A stretch of 37,001 nucleotides of DNA from NCBI GenBank assembly GCA_945898055.1, contig CAMDGV010000042.1, positions 1 to 37,001 on the forward strand, in the 5' to 3' direction. The notes under the pieces are model-generated. The model had not been told where the DNA came from. It worked only from the letters and a program-made list of their open reading frames with translations, and ran no database searches. Shown here one piece after another: positions 2,335 through 37,001 of this stretch (positions are counted from its first letter, which is position 1; each line of letters opens with the position of its first letter). Made by a program: the position numbers and the translations under genes. The stretch is from Akkermansia muciniphila (GTDB taxonomy: Bacteria > Verrucomicrobiota > Verrucomicrobiia > Limisphaerales > UBA9464).

Positions 2335-2356
2335 CCTAGACCCAATCTAAGTTTAC

Positions 2357-2393
2357 AAGGGGCTGAAGCTTGCTTCGGCCCCCTTTCTGTTTT
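2357..2393 (+). terminator. Rho-independent terminator
   Basis: An 11-bp stem, GGGGCTGAAGC (2359-2369) paired with GCTTCGGCCCC (2372-2382), has one G-U pair and a minimal loop that would open to about 4 nt. It is followed by a pyrimidine-rich run ending in TTTT (2383-2393). It lies 23 bp after the stop codon of the large secreted protein. Confidence 0.85.
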
Positions 2394-2734: not shown

Positions 2735-4333
2735 ATGGGACGTTTCTTAACGATATTTTCCGTCTGCTTTGTGGGAATCGTCCTGCTGAGAGCGGCTGAA
2801 TTGACAAATGCACCGTCGGGAAAACACCGCAAAGACGATGCGGCTGCCTCTAACCTTTTCAATGGCCCTATCCTCCGCTTCACAATTGAACTTCCAGCCA
2901 GTAGTCTCGATTCTCTCCGCGGTGAACCCCGCAAACCGGTCCCTGCTTCGGTCACGATCGGAACACAGCGCTTCGACAAAATTACCCTCCATGTCAAAGG
3001 CGCGGCGGGCAGCACTCGGAGCATCGATGAGAACCCAGCACTAACCCTTAATTTCGATAAATTAGTTCCTGGTCGAAAGTTTAGTGGCCTCGATAAAATT
3101 CACCTCAATAACTCCGTTCAGGATCCCTCGCTACTGAGCGAGCAAATGGCTTCACGTCTTTATGATGAAGCCGGTATTCCCACCGCGCGCGCTTCCCAAG
3201 CATTTGTCACCTTGGCGGGTCGTGATCTCGGATTATATGTTCTAAAAGAGGGGTACAACAAAAGCTTTTTGCGTCGTCGCTTTCCGGATCCCTCAGGCAA
3301 TCTTTATGACGGCGGCTTTATTCGTGATATCGACCAAGATCTCGAACGCGATTCGGGTGAAGGCCCAGAGGATCGCAAGGATCTTCAACGCTTACGTGAT
3401 GCCGCCGAGACCGCCGATAAACAACTGCGTGCCACTCGGCTGGAAGCTATCCTCGACATCAAACGTTTTGTGACCTTGAGCGCCATGCAAGCACTGCTGG
3501 TGGATTGGGATGGTTATGGAAATAATCGCAACAACTACCGACTTTATTATCAGCCTCACGCAGGTCTTTTTACCTTTATTCCCCACGGTATGGACCAATT
3601 ATTAGGGTCGCGAGGTCATGGTATGGAAACGCCCAGTGCCGGACTTGTTTCCCGTCAATTGTTCGACATTCCAGCCTTCAACGACGCCTTCTACGCTGAA
3701 GCACATCGCCTCCTAGCCACCACCTTTACTTCCAACCTGCTAACAGCTCACTTTGACATCGTTGAAGCGCGACTCTTGACCGCTTTCAAGACTCTTGCGC
3801 CCGACGAACAAAAGTGGCGCATCAATACCCTGCAGGACTTCCGTAACCATGCCCTTCAACGGATCGAGTCGGCGAAAAGTCAATTGGCTTCCCGCCCCAA
3901 GCCAATCCAATTTAATACCGAAGGCATCACCACCCTCGCTCAATGGCAACCCCGCTACCAACGCGGACAGGCACAAATTGAAGTAACCCGAGTCGACGGA
4001 GTAGAATCATTGCATATCGCCGCGATCGCTCGGGAAACGGTCAGTTCATTCCGAGCAAACATCCGCTTGCCGATGGGTAAATATGCCGTCACGGGCCGGC
4101 TCAAAACCAAAGGCGTCGTCGCCTCAAAGGACGAACGTTTTCAGGGCGGAGCTGCTCTCAGGATCAGTGGAGGTGAACATCAACAACGCTTCTCTGGAGA
4201 TCATGCTTGGACTGAATTCTCTCATGAATTTCAAATCCACGATCCGCGTGAAGTCGAGATTGTCGCAGAATTGCGGGCCGACGCTGGGGAAGTCTGGTTT
4301 GATACGGCCTCACTCAAACTGATCCGTCATTGA
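2735..4333 (+). CDS. CotH kinase family secreted protein with C-terminal beta module
   Basis: I chose the ATG at 2735 because it opens a clean signal peptide (MGRFLTIF...VGIVLLRAAE); the frame also allows an ATG 72 bp upstream. The body matches the CotH kinase family (PF08757 type): the stretch KIHLNNSVQDPSLLSEQMA, then GLYVLKEGYNKSFL and GNLYDGG, and the motif LVDWDGYGNNRNNYRLYY, which resembles the family's Asp/Asn catalytic region. PHGMDQLLG follows as the DxD-like site, with one Asp. From about residue 390 of this product a separate beta-rich domain resembles a carbohydrate-binding or DUF-type jelly roll. CotH proteins in spores are atypical protein kinases, but in PVC and other environmental bacteria they are exported proteins of unknown substrate. 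No cot genes are nearby. Family call is good; substrate unknown. Confidence 0.8.
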   Translation: MGRFLTIFSVCFVGIVLLRAAELTNAPSGKHRKDDAAASNLFNGPILRFTIELPASSLDSLRGEPRKPVPASVTIGTQRFDKITLHVKGAAGSTRSIDENPALTLNFDKLVPGRKFSGLDKIHLNNSVQDPSLLSEQMASRLYDEAGIPTARASQAFVTLAGRDLGLYVLKEGYNKSFLRRRFPDPSGNLYDGGFIRDIDQDLERDSGEGPEDRKDLQRLRDAAETADKQLRATRLEAILDIKRFVTLSAMQALLVDWDGYGNNRNNYRLYYQPHAGLFTFIPHGMDQLLGSRGHGMETPSAGLVSRQLFDIPAFNDAFYAEAHRLLATTFTSNLLTAHFDIVEARLLTAFKTLAPDEQKWRINTLQDFRNHALQRIESAKSQLASRPKPIQFNTEGITTLAQWQPRYQRGQAQIEVTRVDGVESLHIAAIARETVSSFRANIRLPMGKYAVTGRLKTKGVVASKDERFQGGAALRISGGEHQQRFSGDHAWTEFSHEFQIHDPREVEIVAELRADAGEVWFDTASLKLIRH

Positions 4334-4480
4334 ACCCTCGGTGGCTTCAATCCTCTGAACGAGAAACGGGATTCCCTCGAATAAACTTGATCGAGATCAT
4401 CTTTCCAAGTTTTTACTAGTTTCCTTCAAGCCTCCTCACCCTCAAGCTTAACGGGATCATCGCCACCACTTCTTAAAACT

Positions 4481-5770
4481 ATGTCTGACTTCCTCGACCA
4501 ACATGGCATTGTGGTGTTTACAGCCTTTGTCGCTGGCCTATGGGTTAAGTGGCTCTTCGATCTTTTCTTTCTCAGACGCACTTTTTTTGACACGCGCGAA
4601 ACCTTAATCACTCGAGAACGTGAGTTAACCCAATTGCGCCACGAACAAACTCGTATTTCTGAGACCTACAAAAACCGCTTGGTCGAACTGGAAGCGGTGA
4701 CTCATGCCAAACTGAGTGCGGAAAAAAAAGCCACTCAGTGCTCACAAGAACTGGAACTGGCCACAAAGAACTCGCAGGCCGCACAAACCTCTCTCGATTT
4801 AGCGCTCGCTCGCCACTTCAGTCACACCACAGAGATGACAGGTCTTGAATCTCAATTCGAGAGTGCTACCAACGAACTTGTCGCCCTTCGATCTGAAACT
4901 CTGAACTCTAGTTTACGACTTGCTGAACTCCAGGCTGTCGTCACCGGTCAAGACCGATCTCTCACCGAACTTCACGCTCTCCGTGAATCATTAGCCTTAG
5001 CTCGTGATGAAGTCTTGGGTCGCTTCTTGGAAGTCTCCCTCCACTTAAACTCACTTCAAGCAGTTCGGATTCAATTAGAAGAAACGCTCGCTCTCCGTGA
5101 CTTATCGATCTCTGAACTCCGATCTCAACTGACTCCTCTCCAGACAAAAAAAGATCAGGGTGCACTCGCCACAAATCAGGATGAAACTCTTTCCCGTGAG
5201 CTTCTCGCCCGTACAACCGAACTCTCTACGGCACAGGCCCGCGCTCAGGAATATCTCGAAGCCTACAACGAAGCCGTCCTAGAAAACCAAACCATTACCG
5301 TCGAGAGGGACCGCCTCCTAGCCCATTCCTCAACTGCCCAAGCCCTTTTAGCCACCCGTTTGACGGAGGCGACCGCCGAAATTGAGGCACTTCGAGCTTC
5401 ACACCTTTCGGCCAGCGATACCACAGAACCCCTCTCAGGCAGACTGAATCAAGCTTTGATCGACTTGCACGAGTCCACCAGCCTACGAACCACGTTAGAA
5501 GCCGAATTGGCTGCGGTTTCAGAATCTCACGCTCGAATCGAATCCGACTTAGTCGAAAACCGATATTTGGCAAGCCGCGCCGAGGATTTAGCTGAGCATT
5601 TAGGGGTGGCGGAGGCCGAACTTTCGGCCCTGCGCACCCAGGCCAATGGCACATTACCCTCCTTGGATAACGAAATTCTTCTGATCGAACTCGAGCAAGC
5701 GAATCGGGATCGAAAGAAACTAAACGCCGAGTTGGCCTTGTTAAAGGCGAGGACCTCCGGTGAAGACTGA
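4481..5770 (+). CDS. Membrane-anchored coiled-coil protein of unknown function
   Basis: The 429-residue product has one N-terminal membrane segment (about residues 9-30, GIVVFTAFVAGLWVKWLFDLFF) followed by RR and then almost 400 residues of Leu/Glu/Ala/Gln-rich sequence with heptad character, predicted to be a long cytoplasmic coiled coil. No enzymatic motif is visible. The composition (ELxxLRxE, LELATKNSQ) resembles chromosome-segregation or cell-shape filament proteins generally but gives no family. Its 3' end overlaps the next gene by 11 bp, with that gene's GTG start inside this frame, so the two are probably translated together and may act as a complex at the inner membrane. Function unknown. 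Confidence 0.75.
   Translation: MSDFLDQHGIVVFTAFVAGLWVKWLFDLFFLRRTFFDTRETLITRERELTQLRHEQTRISETYKNRLVELEAVTHAKLSAEKKATQCSQELELATKNSQAAQTSLDLALARHFSHTTEMTGLESQFESATNELVALRSETLNSSLRLAELQAVVTGQDRSLTELHALRESLALARDEVLGRFLEVSLHLNSLQAVRIQLEETLALRDLSISELRSQLTPLQTKKDQGALATNQDETLSRELLARTTELSTAQARAQEYLEAYNEAVLENQTITVERDRLLAHSSTAQALLATRLTEATAEIEALRASHLSASDTTEPLSGRLNQALIDLHESTSLRTTLEAELAAVSESHARIESDLVENRYLASRAEDLAEHLGVAEAELSALRTQANGTLPSLDNEILLIELEQANRDRKKLNAELALLKARTSGED
5749..5752 (+). promoter_or_regulatory. Ribosome binding site GAGG for the GTG-start gene
   Basis: GAGG sits 7 nt before the GTG at 5760 and lies inside the end of the upstream coiled-coil gene. It supports the GTG start and translational coupling. 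It stands out because most starts I inspected in this window lack a Shine-Dalgarno sequence. Confidence 0.5.
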
Positions 5771-6290
5771 GGCTCCTCTCTTTGGCGACGACGGTAAACC
5801 CCGCTATTGGCTTGGGACCTACGATGCTTGGCATCTCTTATTACCCGTAGTCTTGGCCGCCTCCGTTGGTTTTCTCCTGCTCAACCTTGCCCCAACCAGC
5901 AAAAAGGTGACACCACGGTTACCGCCCCCTCTTCCCCTAGTTATTCTGGCCGGATGGAGTGCCCCAGCGCCGGGATCCCTTCTTAAAGTGAGTCAATTTA
6001 ATCGAATCCAAGGCTTTGGCTTTCCCAACGGTCAGGTGATTCTCTGGGTGAAATCAGGGACCAATCTAGAACAGAAAATTGCCGTTCAGAGGGTCCAGAC
6101 AAATGGACTCTTTACTATCGGACTCTCTGGTTTTCCCGTGGGTAACTACCGATTTCGCGCGGAGGTCATTGACCCAATAAACCGAAGGAGTTCAACCCCA
6201 GAAATACCGATTCGAATCCTTGCTGATTCGCCCCCAACCAACGCCCCGGTCAAGCCCTCTAAATCCGCGAGAAAAACCCGTCGATCCTGA
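5760..6290 (+). CDS. Small membrane-anchored beta-rich (Ig-like) protein
   Basis: The 176-residue product starts at a GTG overlapping the upstream gene. A short acidic N-terminus (APLFGDDGKPRYWLGTYDAW) leads to one membrane segment (~residues 24-44, LLLPVVLAASVGFLLLNLA), then a proline-rich linker (PRLPPPLPL). A compact beta-rich domain follows (~60-155; GQVILWVKSG, FTIGLSGFPVGNYRFRAEV) that looks like a bacterial Ig-like fold. The C-terminus is basic (KPSKSARKTRRS). No family was recognised with certainty. The overlap with the coiled-coil gene suggests one protein contributes a cytoplasmic rod and this one an extracytoplasmic domain, which is inference. Confidence 0.7.
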   Translation: MKTEAPLFGDDGKPRYWLGTYDAWHLLLPVVLAASVGFLLLNLAPTSKKVTPRLPPPLPLVILAGWSAPAPGSLLKVSQFNRIQGFGFPNGQVILWVKSGTNLEQKIAVQRVQTNGLFTIGLSGFPVGNYRFRAEVIDPINRRSSTPEIPIRILADSPPTNAPVKPSKSARKTRRS

Positions 6291-6341
6291 GGATCAACTG
6301 AGGAATTTTACCTCCAGTCTTTTCGATTAAACGGCCTAGGG

Positions 6342-7058
6342 TCAGGCTAGGTCGGTAAAGATCTGAGTCCGCTGTCTCAGAGCAAGCAAGCGCCCTAGTG
6401 GGGTCTGCAATCCAGACGATAACGAACACCTCAACGCCTCTTCCTTGCCCGCTCCAGAAGCCAGCACCCAAACTTTACGGGCCGCTGCCAAAACTCCAAA
6501 GCTCAGGGTCAATCGACGGGGGGGCGGCTTGGGACCGACCACCGCTACTACGGGTTCTCGGCTCTCCACCACGGCCGATGGGGCCTCGGGAAATAACGAG
6601 GCCACGTGCCCATCTTCACCCATCCCGAGAAGGATCAAATCGAGGATAGGCATACCCTCGGGGGTCTGGGGTAAAGAGCGACGCAACATTTCAGATGCTT
6701 TGCGCGCCGACTCCTCTGGATCCAATTCACCCTGTAATCGATGACATTGAGCTATCCCAATACCCTTCGGCCCGAGCAAGTTCTCCAAGGCTAATCGGTA
6801 GTTACTCTCACGATCATCCGGCGGGACACAACGTTCGTCACCCCAGAAAAAACGGACTTTCGACCAGTCCATCTTGGGCTCCGAGGTTGATTGCGCTGTA
6901 GCCGCCATCAAACGCCCAGCGACTCGACCTCCTGGCAGGGCGACATGGTGCACTCCGCTGGCGACAATATCTGCGCTCATCGCCGTAAGCCAGCGTTGGG
7001 AAACCGCTTGAACCAACGATTCAGAATCAGGAAACCTCAATAGCTCAGGCATCTTCAT
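6342..7058 (-). CDS. pgl: 6-phosphogluconolactonase (DevB/SOL family)
   Basis: This enzyme hydrolyses 6-phosphogluconolactone to 6-phosphogluconate, the second step of the oxidative pentose phosphate pathway, in the cytoplasm. The 238-residue length is normal. Family motifs are all present: ALPGGR (~residues 40-45), the GDER box (73-76) and GMGEDGHVASLFP (145-157), with the catalytic His in the last. It starts 21 bp after the AsmA-like gene and is the last gene of the ABC operon. Association with an envelope operon is odd, and it may simply share transcription. No glucose-6-phosphate dehydrogenase gene lies in the window, although rpe of the same pathway lies about 9 kb upstream on the same strand. 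Confidence 0.93.
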   Translation of the reverse strand: MKMPELLRFPDSESLVQAVSQRWLTAMSADIVASGVHHVALPGGRVAGRLMAATAQSTSEPKMDWSKVRFFWGDERCVPPDDRESNYRLALENLLGPKGIGIAQCHRLQGELDPEESARKASEMLRRSLPQTPEGMPILDLILLGMGEDGHVASLFPEAPSAVVESREPVVAVVGPKPPPRRLTLSFGVLAAARKVWVLASGAGKEEALRCSLSSGLQTPLGRLLALRQRTQIFTDLA

Positions 7059-7079
7059 AAAATAAAGTAAAGGCGGTTT

Positions 7080-10000
7080 TTATTGACCAATCGAAGGAAC
7101 TGGATTGACCAGAGGGGCCGCCCCTTTGGGCTCGGGCAGCAACTCCAGAAAGGTACCAATTGGGTTCAATGGAACAAAGAGAAGTGACGGAATATGCGCC
7201 GGTTGCGTTATGGGCTTTTCAAGACTACCGCCCACTTTAAATTGCAATAATTTCTCGAAAGGAATTAAGACAATCGACGCTACCGGCCCCAAAAGCGGTA
7301 CTTCTCGAAAAAGAGCCCCTTGTACAATCATATCCAGATCCCGTTCAAACCCGATCGAACCAACAAAGGCCAAGCGCATTGACGGAGATCGCAACCGAAG
7401 GTCGCGGGTCAGCAACCGTCCGGAATCGATTTTAAAATGAGCAGCGCCTTCGCTAAATCGTGTCTTGCCCATTCCCGATGAAACCCCACTCATCACCTGC
7501 GATAAGGCCCCAAACAAAGGTTGATCCCAAAGATAACCGTCCCTCAACTGGGCCGACCCAATCCCCTTCCAACTCGACATGCTTGAGGCCTCCCCCTCGG
7601 TGATTTTTAATTGCCCCGAAATCACTCCGTCCGTGCGATTTGATTGGGTCGAGAGATCTCGAATCAATGACTTCAAATTGGCGTTGGTGATTACCGTATC
7701 GATGCGAAAGGTAGTGGAAGCGCCTAAACCCAAATCAAACTCCAAGACCCCGTCTAATCGCCCACCGTGGAATCCGGCATGTAGATTGCTCACTACCAAT
7801 AACGGTCCCAAAGACAACACGCTTCCTGAGATTCCAGTTGTGACAAATTTCCACCAACGAAATTTGGGCGCCGATTCAACATCAAAGCGGATGTTGTTCA
7901 GAGTCGGATCTCCCCGAATTCCAATGACCCCATTAGCCCGAATGGTCGCCGGTTCATCAAAAATATATGGCTTCATCGTTTGCTGAACCTTTGACCCGAT
8001 CACTTGAGTCACTCGTGACGGCAAAAACGTACTGACTGCATTAGTAAAAGAAATCAGTCCTGCCTCAATGTCGTAAGCAAATCCCTCCACTGTGCAGTTT
8101 TGTTTCCCATCCAAAAAGGACGCCTGACCGACCGAAAGAAAAAGGTTGGTGTAGCCCAAGACCGCGTCTAGTCGATCCAAATGTTCCCCGCGAAAAGACA
8201 AATCGTTGACTCGGGCAGTACCGCGAATTCCGATACGTTCTGGCTCGAACCAGCGACCTCGAATCTCTGCCTGAATGGAAGGCGGTTGATTGAGTTTAAT
8301 TTCAGCAAAAACCCTCCGAATCCGGGGCTCAGGAAACAAAGGCAGAACAATCGACGGATCCATTTCTGAGCGAACGGAAAACCAATAGTCTTTGGTCCGT
8401 TCATCTCCGTCGTAATCGAGCGCAACACGGCCTGAGCCGGCAGTTGCCTGCAGATCTCTGATCCGCCAAACACGGTTCGAATAATTAAAAGTCCCTTTCA
8501 CTGTCTCACCACCGATTCCGCGGAATTGGAAAGGTCCTCCACTAAAAGATCCCGCCAAGCGCAGGGAATCCTGGAGGGTACCCTGCCAATTTTCCGGCTT
8601 ATTGACCCAAGGCGGCAGGGTCATTCTCAATCGACCTGCTATCTGCGGTGCACCCGTCTTGGTCCAATCAAATTGGCCAACCCAGCGCCGACTCGCCTCC
8701 CTTAATAACGGTTTCACTCCGGCCGGATCTGCATCAGATCGAAACTCTAAGGACACCTGTCGGGTCACAGCATCGAGGGTTCCCGACCCCTCCAACTGGC
8801 CCCCAAACAATCGCGCATCCAGTTTCTTGAGGCTAACCACTCCTCCAGACCACGCCGCTCCAACGGATACTTGGTCCATGACTAAATCCGGCATCGTCCC
8901 CCTTTCGATCACTGTCGCAACCTGCAATTCAATGGCCCCAAGCCAATCCCACATCACTGTCTCGGGCAATCCAGTCACCGACTTCAAGGCTGGATTCAGC
9001 AGCAGATCTAATCGCAGAGGTCCTGAGGTGAGTTCTCGACTTTTTAGTTCCGAAAATTTGAGGCCAACCCGTGATCGAATCCATCCCAGATGACTGTGAT
9101 CTGCCTCTAATTCAACGGTGCAACTCGGACTCGCCACGCGGTTGGTAAGCTCTAAGTCGGATACCTCCAAAACCGCACGAGACCGAAAAGCGTGGGCTGT
9201 TTCCACTTTAGGTGATGCCCCTAGTTTCCATCGCAGGGTCGCCCCAAGAGGGGCCAAAACGGCATCGCTCGAGCCCTTTAATTTTAGTGATCCTACTTTA
9301 TTTCCATCCCAGTTAAGAGATTTCGCCGACAGTTCCCAACCCCCAGTAACGAGGGTCGACCCATCCGGTACCGCCTCAAATCGTGTCTCCAAGCGGAGCG
9401 CCCCGACGCTTCCCTTTAACAAGGTTGTAGGGCCCGATTCGAAGACAACGGCTGCTTGCAATCGCTCTCTAGCGTTGCCGAAAGGATTCAATTCAGCCGA
9501 AAGAACCAAGGATTCGAAAGCGGCTTGGTCCCACTGAATATCGTCTGCTTTTAAGCGAATTGAACCCGCTGACTGGGTTAAGTCGGCGATATCGACTCGG
9601 AAGTTGGCGGTTAAACGAGGCGGTTGCCTAAAAACAGACCTTTCAACTTCCTTCATCAACCGAGCTAGTCCTCGCTTAATGGGCCGGAAATCCTTGATCG
9701 GCCGCACCGAATCAGACTTCGCCAGCACCACATTGGTCAAAGTGCCCATCGCCGTGAATCGCAGGCCTAAACAGGTTCCTTGGAGTTCCTCGAGACTCCA
9801 AAAGTGAGGCCCCATAAAACGAAGGCTCCCCTCATCAACAGTTAGCTCGAACAACCGAGCGGGCTCATTTGTTTCCCCAACCGGTAAGGTGATGCGTCCA
9901 CCATGAATCCGAACTCCCCGAAGGCCCGATTCAAATCGCAAAAGCTTTCTCCAATCTAGATCTACCTCCAATTCATCAGCGGACACTCGCTCACCCAGCG

Positions 10001-14378: not shown

Positions 14379-15344
14379 TCAACGCCCCTGCCCTTTCTGG
14401 CGCCGAGTTAAATGAATGAAAATATCCTCTAACGATTGGCGGGTCCGGGTTAACTCACGCAGCGCCCATCCTTGTTGTCGGGCTAACTCCCAGATTAAGG
14501 GCCTTAAATCAATCCCTCCTCTTGCACTTACTGACACGCGAAGATAATCCCCTGCTGCTGCCGAAATATCAAAAGATTCAATCTCCGGCAGATCACGCAA
14601 AGTATCCCGAACCGACTCCACGGTCGCAGCAATCTCGGCGACAACTCGACTGTCTTGGCTAAAACGATTCTCCAAATCTTCCACCCGATCGTCCGCCAGA
14701 ATCTGCCCTTGATTCAAAATTAAGACTCGTGAACAGGTCATCTCAACTTCCGACAAAATATGGGTCGATAATAAAACGGTGTGATTCTTTCCCAAATCCT
14801 TAATCAAGGCGCGAACCGCCCGAATTTGGTGAGGATCTAATCCAATGGTGGGTTCATCTAAAATAATGAGATCGGGCTCGTGTACCAAGGCATCAGCTAA
14901 TCCCACCCTCTGTTTGTATCCCTTGGATAGTTGACCAATAATTCGCTTGGAAACATCTCTCAATCCACATTGGTCGATCACACAATCGACGCGATTCCGA
15001 CTCGCCCCAAATCCGAGTCCTTTAAGTCGGGCGCGAAACTTCAAATAATCACGCACGCGCATATCTAGGTGCAACGGGTTGTTCTCCGGCATATAGCCGA
15101 TCCGACGCCGAACTTCGTCGGGTTCATGAAAAACATCGTAACCAGCAATCTTCACCGTCCCGCTGGTCGCAGGCATGAAGGAAGATAAAATCCGCATCGT
15201 GGTTGATTTACCCGCGCCGTTTGGACCCAGGAATCCAACAATCTCGCCACGACCGACCCGAAAGGAAATACCATCCACTGCAATCCGGCCGGGATAGTGC
15301 TTGGTGAGGTCTCGAACCTCGATCATAGGACTCGTATCCAACAT
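14379..15344 (-). CDS. ABC transporter ATP-binding protein (GldA-like)
   Basis: This 321-residue ATPase has Walker A GPNGAGKST (~38-46 of the product), Q-loop region YMPENNPLH, signature LSKGYKQR, Walker B LIILDEPTIGLDP and the H-loop LLSTHILSE. A ~90-residue C-terminal regulatory domain follows, as in GldA/YadG-type exporters. It is the first gene of a tight operon with permease, GldG-like, DUF4340, AsmA-like and pgl genes. I kept the ATG at 15344; the ATG at 15326 (MIEVRDLTK) is an equally good start and begins at the usual conserved sequence. Neither has an obvious Shine-Dalgarno sequence. Confidence 0.93.
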   Translation of the reverse strand: MLDTSPMIEVRDLTKHYPGRIAVDGISFRVGRGEIVGFLGPNGAGKSTTMRILSSFMPATSGTVKIAGYDVFHEPDEVRRRIGYMPENNPLHLDMRVRDYLKFRARLKGLGFGASRNRVDCVIDQCGLRDVSKRIIGQLSKGYKQRVGLADALVHEPDLIILDEPTIGLDPHQIRAVRALIKDLGKNHTVLLSTHILSEVEMTCSRVLILNQGQILADDRVEDLENRFSQDSRVVAEIAATVESVRDTLRDLPEIESFDISAAAGDYLRVSVSARGGIDLRPLIWELARQQGWALRELTRTRQSLEDIFIHLTRRQKGQGR

Positions 15345-15480
15345 CGTGTGTTTGTCTGTGAAAACTAATCACCAAACCAGCGAACAGAAACCTTAAAGTC
15401 CAAATTTTCCGACTGAATTTTCCACCCGCCATTTACCGTCCCTTTAAAATAACCGATCAAAAAGAAGACGACCGCAATCT

Positions 15481-16368
15481 TTACCGACTTCGAACGAGAG
15501 CCACCACTCCCATCACCGCCACCATCCCCCCGAGCAGGGACTGTTTGGTGGGGCGTTCACCTTCCAGCCAATAGGCGAGCGGCACAACCGCCAAGGGAGC
15601 CATCGCCACGATCGGCAGGACTTCAGCAATTGGATGATTCGCCAATGCCCACTGATAACAGACAACCCCAAAACACGGTCCCGCCACGGCATTGCCTGCC
15701 ACCCATTGCCACCCTTTCGCCAATCCTGGCCGTAGTGGCGGTAATTCTCCCTTCTTTAAGGCCACCCAGTACCAAAGGGCCGCCGCTAGAACTCCAGCGA
15801 TGGCGCGTTGAAAGGAGACCGTCAGCGGATTTGCCGGAGTCCCTTCTAGTCGCGCGAGTTCAAATCCATAACGACTCAAAACAGCCCCTCCAGCCTGTCC
15901 GCCAGCCGCGATCAAACCAAAGATCAACCCAGACCTCCCCCAAAGCAGTATCGCTGACTCCCCTCGTTTCGGTGCCAGTGCCACTGCAACACCCAGCAGA
16001 ATAATCATTCCGGCTGCTGACTGAGCCCAACCCGGTGAGTGCCCGAGCCACGCCCATTCGATCCCAACTCCAATGGGCGCCGCCAAACACTGGGTCATTA
16101 GTGAGGTCAACCTGGAACCTAAGCGCGGGAGGGCCAAAAAAACGCCGGTATCTCCCACCCCATATCCAACCACTCCACTCCAAAAAAACCAAACCAAACA
16201 CGGACCGGTCAGGCCCCCTCCCCATCCCAATGCCAAAACACATAAGAGGCTGACCGATAGAGTTTGCCTCCAGAAGTTCGCTCCGGCTGAACCCAGAAAA
16301 CTCACCGATCGACGCGCACTCACCGCCGAAACCGCGAAGAGCAGCAGTGCCAAGACAGCAGGGATCAT
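15481..16368 (-). CDS. EamA/DMT-superfamily permease
   Basis: This 295-residue, strongly hydrophobic protein has two EamA-like halves, each of about five membrane segments. The first half contains FWSGVVGYGVGDTGVFLALPRLGSR and the second contains SFQRAIAGVLAAALWYW, FGVVCYQWALANHPIAEVLPI and APLAVVPLAYWLEGERPTKQSLLGG, the typical end of DMT exporters. It probably moves a small metabolite across the inner membrane; the substrate cannot be told from sequence. It lies 55 bp after rpe on the same strand and may be co-transcribed with it. Confidence 0.85.
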   Translation of the reverse strand: MIPAVLALLLFAVSAVSARRSVSFLGSAGANFWRQTLSVSLLCVLALGWGGGLTGPCLVWFFWSGVVGYGVGDTGVFLALPRLGSRLTSLMTQCLAAPIGVGIEWAWLGHSPGWAQSAAGMIILLGVAVALAPKRGESAILLWGRSGLIFGLIAAGGQAGGAVLSRYGFELARLEGTPANPLTVSFQRAIAGVLAAALWYWVALKKGELPPLRPGLAKGWQWVAGNAVAGPCFGVVCYQWALANHPIAEVLPIVAMAPLAVVPLAYWLEGERPTKQSLLGGMVAVMGVVALVRSR

Positions 16369-29969: not shown

Positions 29970-30266
29970 ATGAGTAATGATGACTCCTTCCGACCTCCGG
30001 GGCCCTGCCCTCTCTGCGGGGTCGCGGTTCCACGAAAAGCGCAAGCCTGCGGCGGTTGTGGTGCATCACATGACTCTGGCTGGAACGAAGAAGCCGCGGT
30101 CTCCGGTCTCAATCTGCCCGATGATTCCTTCGATTATGAGGCGTTTATTGAAGACGAATTTGGCGAACGTCGTAAACCTATTCCAAAGCGGTCCCGAATC
30201 TGGTCTGCCGTCGCCGTCCTGCTTCTCCTCGCCCTGATTAGCGGTTGGATGATTTCCTTAGTTTAA
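29970..30266 (+). CDS. Zinc-ribbon membrane-anchored small protein
   Basis: About 98 residues from the ATG at 29970; a TTG at 29955 would add five residues, and I prefer the ATG. The N-terminus holds a zinc ribbon CPLCGV...CGGCGASH, followed by an acidic segment (LPDDSFDYEAFIEDEFGE), a basic stretch (RRKPIPKRSR) and one C-terminal membrane helix (VAVLLLLALISGWMISLV). Small proteins of this layout occur in Verrucomicrobiota; function unknown. It starts 36 bp after the upstream gene stop. Confidence 0.72.
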   Translation: MSNDDSFRPPGPCPLCGVAVPRKAQACGGCGASHDSGWNEEAAVSGLNLPDDSFDYEAFIEDEFGERRKPIPKRSRIWSAVAVLLLLALISGWMISLV

Positions 30267-30320
30267 TTCCGCCCCTCACCTTCAGAGTGTGATCTCTAGG
30301 AAATCAGTTTTTAAACTCTA

Positions 30321-30353
30321 ACTGATAGGAAATTGCATTTTTGACGCGGAGGG
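30321..30353 (-). repeat. Dispersed 33-bp repeat, copy 1 (inverted)
   Basis: Its reverse complement matches 36332-36364 at 30 of 33 positions, including 16 identical bases at the CCCTCCGCGTCAAAAA end and a 12-base run CAATTTCCTATC. It lies between the zinc-ribbon gene and the 'cacgaat' palindrome. Confidence 0.85.
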
Positions 30354-30359
30354 GAAAAG

Positions 30360-30456
30360 GCCCACGAATTTCACGAATAAACACGAAGACGAAACAACTG
30401 AAAAAGGCGTGATCTCTGCCTCATTTTATTCGTGGAGATTCGTGCGATTCGTGGGC
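30360..30456. repeat. Imperfect palindrome of 'cacgaat' type
   Basis: Arms 30360-30387 and 30429-30456 are inverted repeats matching at 23 of 28 positions and built from CACGAA modules. A 41-nt spacer separates them. The element resembles the 'cacgaat' dispersed repeats often seen in PVC genomes; it would form a long hairpin in RNA or single-stranded DNA. Confidence 0.75.
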
Positions 30457-30491
30457 AAACCCTATTGAAGGGCGGATGAGGTCTCACGCAA

Positions 30492-30571
30492 AGACGCGGA
30501 GACGCAAAGGGGAGAACAGAATTCGGAGAGGTATTTCATGGCTTTCTCGAATCCTTGGCGTCTTAGCGTCT
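30492..30571. repeat. Imperfect palindrome of 'agacgc' type
   Basis: Arms 30492-30510 and 30553-30571 are inverted repeats matching at 16 of 19 positions and containing doubled AGACGC modules. The spacer includes a short frame translating to SPLCVSASLRE, a well-known artefact of such repeats. Together with the preceding palindrome it fills the gap before the small membrane-protein gene. Confidence 0.7.
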
Positions 30572-30624
30572 GGAGCGAAGCGGGGGTCACGTTAGAGTGA
30601 CAGGTTCGGAGTCTTTGCCTCTGC

Positions 30625-31197
30625 TCATTTCTGGGGCACCGTTGGCGCCGCAATCGATACCTGATCGCGAAGAGGCAAATTACAGTCTGACTTCACCAAG
30701 CCTGTCACCTGAAGATTGGCTAGTCGCTGGTCGATCTGCTCCAGGCTTTCGTTGACCTGTCGAAGGCTTACACGTCGGTGCCAAAGGACAAGGGTGAGAG
30801 TGACCAGTGTCCCCCCACTTAAAAGCGCGACCGCGGCGGCGATGAGGGCGATGCAGAATGCCATTGCAATTGTGTTGCCCGCGGAAATCTCGAGCGGAAT
30901 GAGGCGCCGCTTAAGGGCTTTTTCGGTCACCAATTCCTCTCCGGATTCGGTCTTTACAGCGTCGGCTTGCTCGCTTGCCCGCCATTCCGCGAAAATCGCC
31001 CTTTCCTTCGGTCGATAGACGACGAAATAGGATGCGACGACCGCCAGACTGGCGACGATGGAAAGGAATCCGAAGGACAGCGCGACTAGGGTCAGAAGTC
31101 GGCTTCTCCACCGAATGGCGGTCACGGCGGTCAGAATACGGGCATTCAGGTCAGGTGTTTCCGGAGTGCCAATCGATGGGGTCGGGGATGGATTCAT
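30625..31197 (-). CDS. Small membrane protein downstream of ECF sigma factor (candidate anti-sigma)
   Basis: The 190-residue product has two to three membrane segments (~residues 33-60 and ~108-135), an N-terminal Pro/Thr-rich cytoplasmic tail (MNPSPTPSIGTPETPDLNARILTAV) and a C-terminal helical portion (RQVNESLEQIDQRLANLQVTG) that looks coiled-coil. No zinc-anti-sigma HxxxCxxC motif is visible. It overlaps the sigma-factor gene by 47 bp, strongly suggesting coupling; by context it may bind or regulate that sigma factor, which is not shown by sequence. Confidence 0.65.
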   Translation of the reverse strand: MNPSPTPSIGTPETPDLNARILTAVTAIRWRSRLLTLVALSFGFLSIVASLAVVASYFVVYRPKERAIFAEWRASEQADAVKTESGEELVTEKALKRRLIPLEISAGNTIAMAFCIALIAAAVALLSGGTLVTLTLVLWHRRVSLRQVNESLEQIDQRLANLQVTGLVKSDCNLPLRDQVSIAAPTVPQK

Positions 31198-31744
31198 TCA
31201 GTGGGTTTTCCAAGGCACGCCGTAGAGCGCGCTTTCCATCGTAGATGCGAGAGCGGACCGTTCCCAAGGCACAGCGGGTGACGCGGGAAATTTCCTCGTA
31301 GGAAAGGTCTTCGAAGAAGTGAAGGACGATGACTTCGCGATGTTCTGGCGATAGAGAGCCCAGCCCAGCATGAAGAACCTCGCGATCTAGGAACGGTTCA
31401 TCCGGAGCCTCTCCAGCGAGTTGCTCGAGTTCGTCCGAATCCACGCCTTGCGCGAGAGGTCTGCGACGACGGTGCTCGCGGTAAACTCGGTCGCGGGCAA
31501 TGCGAAAGGACCACGGACGAAACTTGGCGGTGTCCCGTAAGGAGGGAAGTCCGCGAAAGATGGCCACCCAGATCTCCTGGGCGAGATCCTCAATCCGGTC
31601 CGGTGCCGCCGACATCATCTGGCGTACAAAGAAAAGCAGCCGTGGTCCGTGGACTCGCAGCAATTCACCAAACGCGCGTTCGTCGCCCAGTTGGCTGCGA
31701 ACGACCAGCATCGTTTCATGAGATTGTCCGATGGGGTCATCCAT
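31151..31744 (-). CDS. ECF-type RNA polymerase sigma factor
   Basis: The 197-residue product has region 2 (DERAFGELLRVHGPRLLFFVRQM, then DRIEDLAQEIWVAIFRGL, then FRPWSFRIARDRVYREHRRR) and region 4.2 (LSPEHREVIVLHFFEDLSYEEI and TRCALGTVRSRIYDGKRALR, a helix-turn-helix). Length and layout are typical of extracytoplasmic-function sigma factors that redirect RNA polymerase to stress or surface genes. An alternative start at 31711 exists. The downstream overlapping membrane protein is the likely partner. Confidence 0.93.
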   Translation of the reverse strand: MDDPIGQSHETMLVVRSQLGDERAFGELLRVHGPRLLFFVRQMMSAAPDRIEDLAQEIWVAIFRGLPSLRDTAKFRPWSFRIARDRVYREHRRRRPLAQGVDSDELEQLAGEAPDEPFLDREVLHAGLGSLSPEHREVIVLHFFEDLSYEEISRVTRCALGTVRSRIYDGKRALRRALENPLNESIPDPIDWHSGNT

Positions 31745-32203
31745 TTGCTTCGATGAGTATGTTGCCGGTCCTGCTAAGAAAGTTCACTGGCAGCAATGAA
31801 ATTCTGGTGAGCCAGTGCTCATTGTTGGTCCTCGAGGCTTGTTTAGCACCGCGCCGTCGGGGATTTCACGTAGATGAGCACCCAATTGAGTGTGGAAACA
31901 ACTCATTAACCCACCCGAATTTGAATACTGATCGCGGAGCGTCAAAAAGCAAATTCCTGTCAATTGAGCCGTCCTTATACACAGATTGTGCCGACCGCCA
32001 GTGGCTATGCGAAGACGGCAGCCCATCGGCTGACTTAGCATCTTCGCAACGGCTCGAAACTAAGCGTGGTGAGGCAGCACGCGCTACTTGACGACAAAGA
32101 TTTATTTGGTGCCGGACTTCATCAATCAACTAGCGGTTCTTCTCTTAATGTTCGTCTAGACTATAAGTTTCACCCACTAAAAATATCACAGACGATTGAA
32201 TAG
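31745..32203. other. Non-coding region spanning the host-to-island compositional change
   Basis: Upstream of the sigma factor I see no conserved protein-coding frame in about 460 bp; several open frames exist but overlap each other and look random. The region contains repeat copy 2 (31939-31961), a 12-base string CAATTGAGCCGT (31961-31972) repeated at 36278-36289, and a small hairpin CACTGGC...GCCAGTG near 31790-31822. Sequence is host-like until about 32130 and strongly AT-rich afterwards. Confidence 0.5.
31939..31961 (+). repeat. Dispersed repeat, copy 2
   Basis: GCGTCAAAAAG followed by CAAATTCCTGTC matches the core of the repeat at 36332-36364 with one gap and two substitutions. It lies in host-like sequence about 180 bp before the AT-rich island begins. 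Confidence 0.65.
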
Positions 32204-32362
32204 TTTTGTATAAATGAAAAAAGATTAGAAAGACGAATACGAAGGGCATTTCGAACTTATGGATTTGTCCAACAAACAGAAAATATTATTGGCAAATATC
32301 CATCAAGTACAGTGCTGGCAAACAGTTTAGCACTTCGAAAACGCCAACTTTCTAAACCCTAA
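32204..32362 (+). pseudogene. Protein-like remnant at the left end of the AT-rich island
   Basis: The frame is open for about 52 codons without a conventional start codon. It reads like a real C-terminus: INEKRLERRIRRAFRTYG, then FVQQTENIIGKYPSSTVLAN, then SLALRKRQLSKP before a TAA. An ATG at 32214 belongs to another, immediately closed frame. It could be the 3' fragment of a gene cut by island insertion. No family recognised. Confidence 0.35.
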
Positions 32363-32465
32363 AAACGTTAGAGTTCATTGGTAGAAGACAGACAAAAATA
32401 GTAAATTTGTAGATTGAAAATAAAATGACAAAAATTATTTTACAAGCTTTTATAATTAAACATCT

Positions 32466-32491
32466 GCGTCAAAAAAGGAAATTCCTATCGG
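32466..32491 (+). repeat. Dispersed repeat, copy 3
   Basis: GCGTCAAAAA, a 6-8 nt variable middle, then TTCCTATCGG, in the same orientation and spacing as the copy at 36332-36364 (24 of 30 aligned positions identical over a slightly longer window). It lies immediately beyond the stop codon of the FeS photolyase gene, inside the AT-rich island. Confidence 0.6.
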
Positions 32492-32492
32492 C

Positions 32493-34031
32493 TCATAATT
32501 CATTGACATTTTCCAAATAATAATTTGCTTGTGCTAAAATTTCCGCTCTTGCCTCTGGTTGCATTTTTCGCCAGACATTATACATCATTCCAATTCGTGC
32601 ATTCTTTGCTAATTTGTCTTCATTCTTATCAAAGAAATTCCAATATAAACTATTAAAAGGACAAGACTTCTCTCCCGTTTTTAATCCTTTATTGTAAAAG
32701 CAACTACCACAATAATCACTCATTTTATCTATATAAGACGCCGAACTGACATAAGGTTTGGTACCGACAATACCGCCATCAGCAAACTGACTCATCCCAC
32801 GTGTATTTGTAATCTCTACCCATTCGATCGCATCGATATAAATTCCGAGATACCAAGAATCTACTGCATCTGGATGAGTCCCAGCTAACAAAGCGAAATT
32901 ACCCGTAATCATCAATCGCTGAATGTGATGCGCATACGCATATTCCAAAGATTGATTGATAGTATCTCTTAAGCAATTCATTTTTGTTTTACCAGTCCAA
33001 AACCAAACAGGTAATTTCTTTTGATTATTAAAGAAATTCATATTCGCATATTCAGGCATTCTCGCCCAATAAATCCCGCGCATGTATTCCCGCCAACCGA
33101 TGATCTGCCGCACAAAACCTTCCAATTGATTGAACTCAATTTTATTGGGAATCTTACGCCATTCCTTAATTGCTTTATCGATTACTTCCTGCGGAGAAAT
33201 CAATTTCAAATTCATAGAAAATGAAAGTCTAGAATGATACAACGACCATTCATTGGGTGACATCGCATCTTGATAACTGCCAAAAAGAGGCAAACATTCG
33301 GTCACAAAAAAATCTAATAACTGCAATGATTGTGCTCTGCTAATTGGCCAAAAAAAATTGATCGGATTAAAAGTACCAATCGTTTTAATATCGGTACTTT
33401 TTATTTCTTGAAAAATAGATGAAACGTCATTTTTAAAAACTAGCGGAGCAATCGGTTTATGGTTTTTAGGCAATTTCCTTCTATTCTCGCCATCATAATT
33501 CCATTTTCCGCTCAGCGGTTGATCACCCTCCATCAAAACTCCATGCTTTCTTCTTAGTGCTCTGTAAAAGCTCTCCAATAAAAACGTTTTCTTTCCATTA
33601 AAAAAATGACCCAATTCGTCACGTGTGGTAAAAAAATGTTCCGAATCAACCGCAGAACTTGGAATTCCAATGGATTGACAAATATTTTTTAGTTGTTGAT
33701 CCAAGCGGTATTCATCTGGCCATTGATACTCAAAATGAGTAAACTTATTCTGGAGAACTATCTGCCTTATATTACTTTGAAAAGACTGCAGATTATCTTC
33801 ATCGTTAAGCTTAATGTAAATAACTTGATGATTTTTAGCTATCAATTCAAAAGCAAACGAGCGCATCGCAGCAAAAAAACCGACCACTTTTTGAATGTGA
33901 TGTGTGGCGTAATCTGTTTCTGTTCGGATTTCCATTACAACATAGGTAATAGTATCATCCACAACTGAAAACCAAGAATGGTTTATATTCAACTGGTCAC
34001 CAAGTACTAGTCTCAGAGTTTTTGTAGGCAT
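32493..34031 (-). CDS. FeS-cluster photolyase/cryptochrome (FeS-BCP, PhrB/CryB type)
   Basis: The 512-residue product starts at the ATG at 34031 (MPTKTLRLVLGDQLN); a longer frame to 34058 is less likely because the ATG has AGGAAA 4 nt upstream (34036-34041). Family signatures: an N-terminal Rossmann-type domain beginning LRLVLGDQLN, QIIGWREYMRGIYW in the FAD domain, and the Cys set Cys353, Cys441, Cys444, Cys457 (YCGSC...SCPFN). That spacing equals the four [4Fe-4S] ligands of Agrobacterium PhrB, shifted by 3. These proteins repair (6-4) photoproducts using FAD and light. Very AT-rich, Bacteroidetes-like; coupled to the DUF2256 gene. Confidence 0.93.
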   Translation of the reverse strand: MPTKTLRLVLGDQLNINHSWFSVVDDTITYVVMEIRTETDYATHHIQKVVGFFAAMRSFAFELIAKNHQVIYIKLNDEDNLQSFQSNIRQIVLQNKFTHFEYQWPDEYRLDQQLKNICQSIGIPSSAVDSEHFFTTRDELGHFFNGKKTFLLESFYRALRRKHGVLMEGDQPLSGKWNYDGENRRKLPKNHKPIAPLVFKNDVSSIFQEIKSTDIKTIGTFNPINFFWPISRAQSLQLLDFFVTECLPLFGSYQDAMSPNEWSLYHSRLSFSMNLKLISPQEVIDKAIKEWRKIPNKIEFNQLEGFVRQIIGWREYMRGIYWARMPEYANMNFFNNQKKLPVWFWTGKTKMNCLRDTINQSLEYAYAHHIQRLMITGNFALLAGTHPDAVDSWYLGIYIDAIEWVEITNTRGMSQFADGGIVGTKPYVSSASYIDKMSDYCGSCFYNKGLKTGEKSCPFNSLYWNFFDKNEDKLAKNARIGMMYNVWRKMQPEARAEILAQANYYLENVNEL

Positions 34032-34032
34032 T

Positions 34033-34170
34033 TTATTTCCTAATTCTGCATTGATCACTGCAATATTTTACTTCATTCCAAACTTTCTCCCATTTCTTTC
34101 TCCATAAAAATGGTCTATTACACACGATACATATTTTGGATGGTAAATGTTGTTTTTTAACCCCTTTCAT
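34033..34170 (-). CDS. DUF2256 domain-containing small protein
   Basis: A 45-codon gene ending 1 bp before the FeS photolyase start. The product reads [20 protein letters not shown], then [21 protein letters not shown], then RIRK. This is the DUF2256 signature: CxxC...WRKKWE..W..VKYCS..C, a four-Cys zinc-ribbon-like fold. A Shine-Dalgarno AGGA (34178-34181) sits 7 nt before the ATG. In many genomes DUF2256 genes are found next to photolyase/cryptochrome genes, and this arrangement is the same. Function unknown; a role with the photolyase or its Fe-S cluster is inference. Confidence 0.92.
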
Positions 34171-34417
34171 GAGTAAATCCTGGTTGTGTTTGCTTCCACT
34201 CTACTTCTACAGAGGAGCCTTTCGCTAAAAGGACCGCCGTGGGTTTTATTTTATTTAAAACGGCCAAAGCTTCACCCTACATGGCATAAAAATCGCATCG
34301 AATATCATAACTAGATATGGGACTGGTATTCCAACTGGAATGTTTTAAACAATACTCTTCAGTACAATCTTCGTTAAGCTTCGTGTAACCCTAATAATGC
34401 TAATTTATAAATTCTTT
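34157..34417 (-). pseudogene. Decayed reading frame overlapping the DUF2256 start
   Basis: Read on the minus strand, a frame running GYTKLNEDCTEEYCLKHSS...YDIRCDFYAM is broken by an in-frame TAG at 34277-34279 and continues as GEALAVLNKIKPTAVLLAKG, then [19 protein letters not shown] to a TAA at 34157-34159. Both halves look like protein, so a single stop mutation in a formerly functional gene is plausible. No family was recognised. Confidence 0.45.
34178..34181 (-). promoter_or_regulatory. Ribosome binding site AGGA of the DUF2256 gene
   Basis: AGGA on the minus strand, 7 nt before the ATG at 34170. It supports the small gene and its start. Confidence 0.5.
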
Positions 34418-34680
34418 GAAAGAACCTGGAATTCTCCTGCAGGCAATACCAGTCTTGACCAATCTATGATTCCATTCTTATCCAAAACCTATTCAAACTT
34501 CACTTGTTGCCTTCCTCTCATTTGATGAATAAAATATCAAATTAGAACAACCGTAGAATGTTCTTTGTATAAGTTGTTTTTCATCCACGCCACGAGTCGA
34601 TGTGGAATGGATTGATTTCTTCAAGCGTTCCTAAATGCGGAATTGAAACTCCGAATCTTTTTGTATTTTAAACATAAATC
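34418..34680 (-). pseudogene. Decayed reading frame between the photolyase genes
   Basis: On the minus strand protein-like stretches appear in different frames: FKIQKDSEFQFRI, then LGTLEEINPFHIDSWRG, then MKNNLYKEHSTVVLI, YFIHQMRGRQQVKFE and VLDKNGIIDWSRLVLPAGEF, each cut by frameshifts or stop codons. Together they suggest a gene of about 85 codons broken by at least two frameshifts and two stops. It could be one gene with the next remnant. Not recognised. Confidence 0.4.
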
Positions 34681-34700
34681 GAACTAAACTTACAACTGAT

Positions 34701-36224
34701 TTACCTTCCTACAGATCGAGTGTCGCCATTATTTTTAACATAATCTCGTTTAGGTTTCCGAGCGGAATGACTTACATGTTTTTTTAGAATTCTAATTCCT
34801 TCGGTTTTCACTTCGTCTTTTTTGCGAAAACCCCAAACCAAATCACTGGCATATTTTCGAGTTACTTCAATATCGACAATGGGTTCTGGATAGTCTTTCC
34901 CAATTTTGCAAAGGTAGAATTGTTGCTCAATCGGATTCAATTTCCATGGTTCATGAATTAGATTCACAGGGATTTCTGCCAACTCTGGAACCCAGTGTTT
35001 GATGAAAATTCCTTCAGGATCGTGTTCTTCTGAATTCTTAATCGGACTGTAAATTCTAATGGTATTAATGCCAGTTGTCCCCGATTGCATTTGCAATTGT
35101 GGGTAGTGAATTCCGGGTTCATAATCTAAGAACTGACGCGCCAAAAAATGCAATTCGCGCCAGTCTTGCCACAAATTGAAAGTAAAAAACGAAACGACCA
35201 TAGCCCTCATTCTAAAATTGAGATAACCCGTCGCGACAACACATCGCATGCAAGCATCAATGATAGGAATTCCAGTTTTTCCTTCTTGCCATGCTTTGAT
35301 GTAAGCTTCGTTTTTGGGCTTTATTAAGGAGTCGTATGCACGGTTGACATTTTCACATTCCATTCGGCATTCGTCTTCAAATTTTTGAATAAAGTGACAA
35401 TGCCAATGTAATCTTGATACAAAACTGAGTATGGCTCGTTTGTTTTTGGAATTTTCATAATGTTGATTCGTATATTGATAAACCATCCGCATACTGATAT
35501 TACCGTAAGTCAAATACGGTGACAATCGACTGCAACCTCTTCGGCTTAACCAAGGCTTTGAAATATGTTCGCTATAGTTGACGTGTCGCTCTTTGACGAA
35601 ACTATCGAGGTAGCGCCAAGCCCAGTATTCGCCGCCTTGCTGGAAGTTTTTGTATCGCGTTGTGATTTGATTATTTAAAGTCTCCCCTTTCAGCGCATCA
35701 TAAAATCCTTGGTTCAGATTTTCAAATTCGAAAGCAGTGAGATCAATTAATTTAGGGTTATTACGCATAACATTCTCCCATCTTTTGTCCCAATTACTTC
35801 TCGATTTTAATCTTCGAATCACACCGTGCATTTGAAATTCCTTCCATTGAATATTATTTTCTTGGAGGAAAAGCTGCATCGCACTGTCTCGAGCGTACGT
35901 GATATTATTACCTATTTCTTGATGAGAAAAAACGGTTTTAATGTCATATAGATGTCCTAATTCTTTAAAAACATTTTTAACTTCGTTATGAAAAAAATAA
36001 ACTTTTGTACCCATTGAATTCAGTTTAGAATTCATGTCCTGCAGTGACTCATAAATAAACCGCCAATGACGGACATCTGAATCATCATAGCTCATGACAG
36101 ATGGCTCGAAGAAATAAACTAATAGAACTGGAACGTTTTCTTGTTGCGCCATAAAAAGCGGTTCATGGTCCGTCAGTCGCAGATCTCGTTTGAACCAAAC
36201 GATATTAATGGCAGTTCTTATCAA
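34701..36224 (-). CDS. Divergent cryptochrome/photolyase family flavoprotein
   Basis: The 507-residue product begins [18 protein letters not shown], the canonical photolyase N-terminus (antenna domain ~1-135), and has a FAD-binding domain with [40 protein letters not shown] and WVPEL. It departs from standard CPD photolyases in the FAD pocket: [13 protein letters not shown] replaces the LIWRDFY-type helix, and [20 protein letters not shown] replaces the DxxANNGGWQW region, so the Asn that contacts flavin N5 in CPD photolyases may be absent. The start is TTG at 36224; no ATG exists between the upstream stop and the conserved core. Substrate uncertain. Confidence 0.88.
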
Positions 36225-36428
36225 TTGATTGAGATTAATGTTAGTTCCGTATCAGGTTTAGCATAACTCAGTATATCCAATTGAGCCGTTTTGTAATAAC
36301 CGTCTAAACCAGAACAAGTGATGGTGTTTTACCCTCCGCGTCAAAAAGTCAATTTCCTATCGGTAATCCAAGGCCAGCGGACTCTTGCCCCGCCCTCCAG
36401 ACAGGCGATCCCATCGACAAAACTGGGG
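36225..36428. other. Island right border, non-coding
   Basis: The first part is AT-rich, the rest from about 36331 GC-richer. It holds the 12-base string CAATTGAGCCGT (36278-36289), an inverted pair GGTTTAG/CTAAACC (36255-36261 and 36304-36310), and repeat copy 4. It contains the presumed promoter of the divergent photolyase gene; no recognisable promoter could be assigned. Confidence 0.45.
36332..36364 (+). repeat. Dispersed 33-bp repeat, copy 4, at the island edge
   Basis: CCCTCCGCGTCAAAAA, GT, CAATTTCCTATC, GGT; matches the inverted copy at 30321-30353 at 30 of 33 positions. It lies exactly where base composition returns from the AT-rich island to host-like sequence. Confidence 0.85.
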
Positions 36429-37001
36429 TCACGGGGCTTGGATCCGGCCGGCCAACTCGGCCTTGGCTCCGGCCCAACCTCGCCGCCACTGAGCGGTTAA
36501 TTCCTCGACCCGTGCTCGTTGGAAGGGTTCACCGGCGACATTGCTGTTCTCCTGCGGATCGGAGCGATGGTCGTAGAGCTCAATGTCCTCAATCTGGGAA
36601 GGGGCCTCGCGATCCACCCAAACGGTGAAGCGATACCGGTCGGTCCGCATCGAATAGCCCATCAATGGACCCGTGCCCGACCGACGACCCGGCCTCGGAT
36701 ATTGGCTGAAGGCCGCGGACTTCCATCGGCGTTTCGGATCATCGAGCAACGGCTTGAAACTACTGCCTTCGAGGTGCTGAGGGAGTGGGAGGCCTGCCAA
36801 CTCGGACAAAGTCGGATAGATGTCCACGAATTCCACCAGGGCCTCGGTCCGAACGCCGACCCGCTTCATTCCCGGAACCGACAGCAACAGGGGTGCGCGC
36901 GTATCATTTTCGGTGTTGGAGTGTTTACACCAGGCGTCGTGCTCCCCGAGCTTCCATCCGTGATCACCCCACAAGATGACGATGGTGTTTTTGCGTAAAT
37001 C
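36429..37001 (-). CDS. Sulfatase, C-terminal part (truncated by window end)
   Basis: The frame runs off the end of the window at its 5' side; 191 codons are seen. The visible portion starts NTIVILWGDHGWKLGEH, with the Asp-His pair of the sulfatase metal/sulfate site, and continues APLLLSVPGM, VEFVDIYPTLSELAGLPLPQHLEG and ELYDHRSDPQENSNVA. This matches the type I sulfatase family (choline- or iduronate-2-sulfatase-like). The catalytic Cys/Ser that becomes formylglycine lies outside the window. The enzyme likely removes sulfate from polysaccharides; PVC genomes commonly carry many such genes. Confidence 0.9.
   Translation of the reverse strand, partial: DLRKNTIVILWGDHGWKLGEHDAWCKHSNTENDTRAPLLLSVPGMKRVGVRTEALVEFVDIYPTLSELAGLPLPQHLEGSSFKPLLDDPKRRWKSAAFSQYPRPGRRSGTGPLMGYSMRTDRYRFTVWVDREAPSQIEDIELYDHRSDPQENSNVAGEPFQRARVEELTAQWRRGWAGAKAELAGRIQAP

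Follow-up and report, generated by a model that had tools for sequence, protein, structure and literature searches.

We begin by considering the right-hand end of a 37,001-bp stretch of DNA (the window), which is the entire contig C42 of the recipient genome G000 (Akkermansia muciniphila; 4.63 Mb in 136 contigs, completeness 95.2%, contamination 0.49%). In this region, an island of AT-rich DNA sits between two direct copies of a short repeat, here called R, and carries two photolyase-family genes, a DUF2256 gene and two decayed remnants (Table 1). As the original prediction had it, all of these genes lie on one strand, here the minus strand. The intact ones belong to PF04244, PF03441 plus PF00875, and PF10013. 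The first photolyase, of the iron-sulfur (FeS) type, matches PF04244 at 244.1 bits (cut-off 22.1) and no NCBIfam model. The second matches PF03441 at 216.2 bits (cut-off 27) and PF00875 at 79.2 bits (cut-off 26.6), and reaches no named NCBIfam subtype (best 149.6 bits against a cut-off of 506). The partial decay that had been predicted is also present: the DUF2071 remnant has stops in each of its three frames (7, 14 and 14), and the flavin reductase is reduced to 34 residues.

Table 1. Features in and around the photolyase island (positions are those of the window; rc, reverse complement; aa, amino acids)
Feature	Position	Strand	Remarks
R copy	30318..30361	-	fixed end (rc of CTATCA..) faces left; match to G008 stops at 30312
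Open reading frame following the sigma gene	30625..31197	-	may encode an anti-sigma factor, judging from its position alone; no Pfam family
Extracytoplasmic function (ECF) sigma factor gene	31151..31744	-	G+C 0.586
Degenerate R copy	31939..31965	+	lacks one base and has one substitution; identified by eye
R copy, left border	32464..32491	+	fixed end (CTATCGGC) abuts flavobacterial DNA
FeS-type bacterial (6-4) photolyase	32493..34031	-	PF04244 (DPRP), 512 aa, intact
DUF2256 protein	34033..34170	-	PF10013, 45 aa, intact
DUF2071 pseudogene	34160..34747	-	start lost, stops in all frames, frame changes
Photolyase/cryptochrome-family protein	34701..36224	-	PF00875+PF03441, 507 aa, TTG start, intact
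Flavin reductase remnant	36224..36325	-	last 34 residues (181-214); cut by border
R copy, right border	36327..36363	+	inner end abuts flavobacterial DNA; fixed end towards right flank
Right flank	36365..37001	.	93% identity to G001 and G014 of the same genus, match starting at 36365
Sulfatase gene, 3' part	36429-37001	-	within right flank

The base composition does shift sharply at the island, as had been claimed. The G+C content is 0.525 over positions 1-32140, 0.361 over 32140-36331 and 0.599 over 36331-37001, and a 400-bp scan gives a single low-GC block within the window (32091-36305). The values quoted with the claim, 28% inside and 65% in ruvB, are too extreme, since the island stands at 36% and ruvB at 53.7%, with 24-28% reached only by some 100-bp stretches of the island. 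Likewise, the proposed extent of 32140-36331 holds for the low G+C, but recognisably flavobacterial DNA runs only from 32493 to about 36325. The piece at 32140-32463 is AT-rich, has no long open reading frame and lies outside the flavobacterial match; a blastn search of it against the collected loci finds only its own contig.

The next question is "from where does this DNA come?" The island is collinear with the DNA of a flavobacterial locus (L021), with 75.4% identity over 32493-34608 and 77.4% over 34774-36322. The other first-listed flavobacterial loci mostly have 72-78% DNA identity and the more distant ones about 64% at the lowest. In the closest loci, the matching DNA starts at 32493 and ends at 36322-36329. 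The operon of L021 contains genes for DUF2805, a 132-aa open reading frame, flavin reductase, photolyase, DUF2071, DUF2256, the FeS photolyase and a DASH cryptochrome (TIGR02765, above cut-off). The gene order in the island is that of this Flavobacteriaceae operon, with DUF2256 in the same place, and the same series from flavin reductase to FeS photolyase is found in the Flavobacterium loci L021, L023 and L031. Compared with that operon, the island is without DUF2805, the 132-aa frame, most of the flavin reductase and the DASH cryptochrome, and its DUF2071 gene is broken. On the left, the island begins where the FeS photolyase frame ends with its stop codon, the point at which L021 continues straight into the DASH gene; on the right, it breaks off within the flavin reductase gene. 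The G+C at third codon positions (GC3) of the three intact island genes is 0.30-0.36, against 0.50-0.63 for six other genes of the window; it is 0.32-0.33 in L021, and the island is thus donor-like in this respect.

The flavobacterial-type loci are the best 80 of 230 confirmed. They were searched with patterns made from the query, which favours close kin, while the host-phylum sequences used in the trees below were found independently. The titles of 77 of the 80 name Bacteroidota; the remaining three (L027, Bifidobacterium; L028, Nitrotoga; L056, Rhizobium) are grouped with Bacteroidota here. The first two fall within the flavobacterial clade in both trees, and L056 does so in the photolyase tree only, having been thinned from the FeS tree. 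Five records of metagenome-assembled genomes (L022, L027, L028, L054 and L056) carry the titles Sphingobacterium, Bifidobacterium, Nitrotoga or Rhizobium, yet their contigs are of flavobacterial type, and these titles seem unreliable. L022 is near-identical to L021.

The trees agree with this origin. In the FeS tree (92 of 128 rows, flavobacterial-type rows thinned), the window protein lies inside a clade of 44 rows, all the others being flavobacterial-type loci, with a Shimodaira-Hasegawa-like approximate likelihood ratio (SH-aLRT) support of 99%; its nearest neighbours are L021, L022 and L024 (87%), and its top identity is 80%. In the photolyase tree (59 of 104 rows, after leaving out rows below 250 bits and thinning), it lies inside a clade of 42 rows (SH-aLRT 100%), nearest to L021 and L022 (92%), and the top identity is again 80% (L023). 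Both clades are dominated by Flavobacteriaceae and also contain rows titled Chitinophagaceae and others. The 17 host-phylum rows of the photolyase tree stand apart, as do 46 of the 48 in the FeS tree. Both photolyases (the 45-aa DUF2256 protein was left out) are thus placed with flavobacteria and away from the host phylum, and the acquisition from Bacteroidetes that had been proposed is supported by the trees, the collinear match and GC3 together.

Vertical inheritance, or a transfer in the reverse direction with flavobacteria as the recipients, would be an extremely improbable explanation of these data. The family is present in the host phylum, where 75 of 387 genomes (counting G000) have an FeS match, and two host-phylum sequences, G421 and G702 (46-47% identical), branch beside the flavobacterial clade, though outside of it. 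However, the copy in the window lies inside a broad clade of flavobacterial type, in which the other members have the longer operon, the island has the flavobacterial GC3, and the full-length FeS versions of the host phylum reach 47% identity at most. For the second photolyase, the best full-length match in the host phylum is 43% (59 relatives, including G000).

The predicted functions follow from the families. Both types of photolyase act by light-driven electron transfer from reduced flavin adenine dinucleotide (FAD). From family knowledge, we take the FeS-type enzyme to repair (6-4) photoproducts and the second one (FAD_binding_7) to repair, probably, cyclobutane dimers. The best PDB match of the former is 7ykn (569.5 bits), named 6-4 photolyase FeS-BCP. 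In an alignment to 4dja, counted by hand, 9 of 9 key residues of PhrB are identical (W342, C350, H366, W390, Y424, Y430, C438, C441 and C454), including the four cluster cysteines and the active-site His366. Apart from C454, these residues are named in PMC4619345. The window protein thus shares PF04244 and the nine residues with the FeS-BCP/PhrB (6-4) photolyases, and by sequence it belongs to the flavobacterial branch. We infer that the island photolyases are active, expressed and of benefit.

The retained genes appear as constrained as they are in the donors. The nonsynonymous divergence (dN) from L021 is 0.128 for the FeS photolyase and 0.130 for the other, where the two flavobacteria L021 and L023 differ by 0.117 and 0.139; third-position differences from L021 are 0.43 and 0.42, and the synonymous divergence is saturated. 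A part of this history is older than the transfer, and the decay of DUF2071 may be so as well.

Within G000, neither photolyase search gives a second match. Among 18 genomes of the same genus, the FeS query matches 15 and the photolyase query also 15, 13 of the latter being full-length at 40-43%. No match to either query is found in G002, G006 or G008 (the last only 86% complete), and G004 retains two photolyase versions of its own, 23 kb apart. This distribution is compatible with a history in which older photolyases would have been lost before the new ones were acquired.

Combining the collinearity, the tree placement, the intact frames, the FeS-BCP key residues, the lack of another match in the genome and the junctions at R, we conclude that a fragment of about 3.8 kb of a flavobacterial light-repair operon was very probably transferred between phyla and fixed in an accessory block bounded by R copies. 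The contig itself belongs to the recipient: positions 2634-30312 of the window are syntenic with G008, the closest relative by sequence match, at 92-93% identity on two of its contigs. A number of observations weigh against this conclusion. No vehicle is seen, since the matches in 42 plasmid records are confined to short stretches of photolyase (13% of the query at best) and no phage matches the island. The tree tool warned of long branches and of dissimilar composition between groups in these quick-search trees. Partial FeS matches in relatives go up to 51% (over 158 residues) and 54% (over 61 residues), and one partial photolyase match has 49% identity over 210 residues. The R copies at the two borders are identical in 31 of 50 bases, as compared with a mean of 31.6 for copies on different contigs; as they are no more alike than others, there is no indication of a recent duplication on insertion. 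Finally, only 637 bp of right flank precede the end of the contig. This flank is 93% identical to G001 and G014 where ruvB and acrB are just 71-73% identical to them, and it may therefore be an imported or mis-joined piece in its own right.

The nearby contig end and the high identity of the right flank would fit if flavobacterial and sulfatase pieces had been wrongly joined to the recipient contig at short repeats in assembly or binning, and a second contig (C40, described below) likewise has Bacteroidota-like DNA near its end, beside R copies. Such a chimera is nonetheless improbable. R is found in none of the 80 flavobacterial-type loci (957,560 bases; the actual donor is unsampled), and a contig of this type would therefore offer no matching end. 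The bordering R copies are distinct variants and would be an unlikely bridge of shared short words. The island includes a decayed gene, though that decay could precede the transfer. Moreover, same-genus DNA is found on the right as well, so a single bad join would still leave the island in the lineage. The right flank is not among the listed matches of the nearest relative. As for the empty site that the original prediction called for in related genomes, G001 and G014 have the right flank without the island (in G001 the neighbour there is an epimerase gene, PF01370) and the synteny of G008 ends at 30312, but no genome is found in which both flanks are joined, a further point against the transfer between phyla.

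We turn our attention to the repeat. R is about 38 bp long (consensus TTTACCCTCCGCGTCAAAAAAGCAAWTTCCTATCA), with one fixed end and a variable inner sequence. When at most 2 mismatches are allowed, a 21-base form of it gives 103 near-matches in G000, as compared with 1 in a reversed control. A longer form is present in 4 of 320 order-level genomes (40 times in G000, 5 in G022, 3 in G008 and once in G092). An R pattern has no exact match in viral contigs, and a longer variant of R none in plasmids. Homologies on the inner side divide the copies into sub-families, and the comparison of these inner sides reveals no common autonomous element. Among neighbouring pairs in the same direction, 8 of 27 share 8-73 more bases on the inner side and 0 of 27 share more than 3 beyond the fixed end. 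Frames on the fixed-end side are open for at least 100 codons at 20 of 66 copies by a looser count, and the other three readings give 7-10 of 63-66, a hint of a promoter or 5' leader that the stricter count below does not bear out.

Several known kinds of element were considered for R and rejected. Thirteen of 66 copies lie within 20 bp of a start codon where the control rate is 0.157, which is no significant link for a promoter or 5' leader, and no RNA family reaches its gathering threshold in 30000-37001. For an integron array, the best TIGR02249 match in G000 is 80.6 bits against a cut-off of 265; 14 control genomes also have matches below the cut-off, and none above it. On the inner side, an attC-like inverted partner of the R end is present within 200 bp at 2/67 and 4/67 copies with 1 and 2 mismatches (control 1/62 and 2/62), and at 19/67 with 3 mismatches (control 9/62), a weak excess. 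A classical transposon or composite insertion sequence is not seen, the list of open reading frames of 30318-36364 containing no transposase on reading; the Pfam scan in this bounded block covered the sigma gene, the island genes and the frame at 30625-31197. The outer R copies, at 30318 (minus) and 36363 (plus), face outward, as would the ends of a terminal-inverted-repeat transposon, a solution that we do not adopt with a single further close outward-facing pair (L169) in the stretches scanned.

Does R then mark the points where foreign DNA is joined? The match of G008 to the window ends close to the R copy at 30318, with 6 bp between it and the fixed end, and on contig C11 the synteny with G008 breaks 2 bp from another copy. 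In total, 2 of 6 internal breakpoints are at R and 4 are elsewhere (369 kb of G000 against 735 kb of G008); most of the G000 stretches compared, C11 included, were chosen for R, which biases this fraction, and the breakpoint in the window is itself unbiased. From 68 R copies with flanks, 11 have any G008 match in the sampled stretches; none of these matches crosses R, and in 3 the match begins just past the fixed end. While R could be merely an ordinary intergenic repeat whose place at the borders is incidental, as its more than 100 copies, the lack of a start-codon link, the 4 breakpoints away from it and the absence of an AT-rich block from 17 of 19 scanned stretches (nearly all chosen for R copies) would suggest, we regard this as unlikely, though by no means negligible, the less so given the biased choice of stretches. 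Against it stand both flavobacterial ends, which lie at an R copy, together with the two G008 breakpoints just given; by simple arithmetic, with 103 copies in a genome of 4.63 Mb, chance would produce two contacts within 10 bp about once in a million. We infer that R copies took part in the integration.

The contig C40 of G000, selected for its many R copies and therefore an example and not a rate, contains a second case. Two R copies that have 101 bp in common, up to the fixed end, enclose a 3.2-kb segment with a G+C of 0.40, which contains the 3' part of gltX, an alpha/beta hydrolase gene and a thioredoxin-like gene. The best PDB matches of the gltX fragment are 6brl and 6b1z at 358 bits, the next being 181; we take both structures to be from Elizabethkingia (Bacteroidota). 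We judge by eye that the other genes of C40 among direct R copies are Bacteroidota-like as well. The stretch collected around this segment (positions 1-8286, near the contig end) also has genes for an S9 peptidase, a GDSL lipase and a beta-lactamase family protein.

Speculatively, R may be an end of some mobile or capture element of this lineage that has yet to be described and would be distinct from both classical integrons and recognised insertion sequences. Such an element would lodge random DNA fragments from the community, some of them from Bacteroidota, between direct R copies, with the photolyase island as one useful capture; we hold this to be doubtful. The arrangement has a likeness to integron cassette arrays, where foreign DNA is likewise flanked by direct copies of a repeat that has one fixed end. 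Unlike in such arrays, there is no integrase above cut-off and no clear inverted partner, and the segments are cut within genes (flavin reductase here, gltX on C40).

In the transfer between phyla, the flavobacterial fragment would have entered by an unspecified route and been joined at R. Both photolyases and DUF2256 would then have been retained, with DUF2071 decaying and the flavin reductase truncated at the border. The photolyases would draw on blue light both to reduce FAD and to excite it, and so split lesions made by ultraviolet (UV) light, and DUF2256, adjacent to the photolyase genes, is presumably accessory. As the donor promoter is gone, expression would rely either on a local promoter or on read-through from the sulfatase gene, which lies upstream on the same strand. 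The island would be a clean example of a light-repair operon crossing phyla, apparently with the only photolyases of its recipient, in which the repair genes were selectively retained and a neighbouring gene decayed. If R truly marks the points of entry, it would also give a view of how foreign chromosomal DNA can enter without a plasmid, a phage or a known integrase.

In the literature, no report of this flavobacterial transfer and none holding DUF2256 or DUF2805 is found among the matches listed. According to PMC9649867, an operon of Synechococcus PCC 7335 also has two photolyase genes; it is induced by UV-B, and the authors consider a horizontal transfer from proteobacteria possible. The operon differs from the island in genes and donor.

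Some minor observations concern the surroundings of R copies. The ECF sigma factor to the left of the island has its best match among the 18 same-genus genomes at an E value of only 5.7e-17. In G022 (L167, contig C31, positions 15106-16068 and 7954-8458), a purD-like gene and another gene, as seen by eye, are apparently truncated at an R copy, and the missing part of purD is not found in 19.8 kb. To the left of R copies in two stretches (L263 and L211) are decayed transposase-like sequences, 89% identical to each other, which we presume to be from a transposase with a DUF4338-like part.

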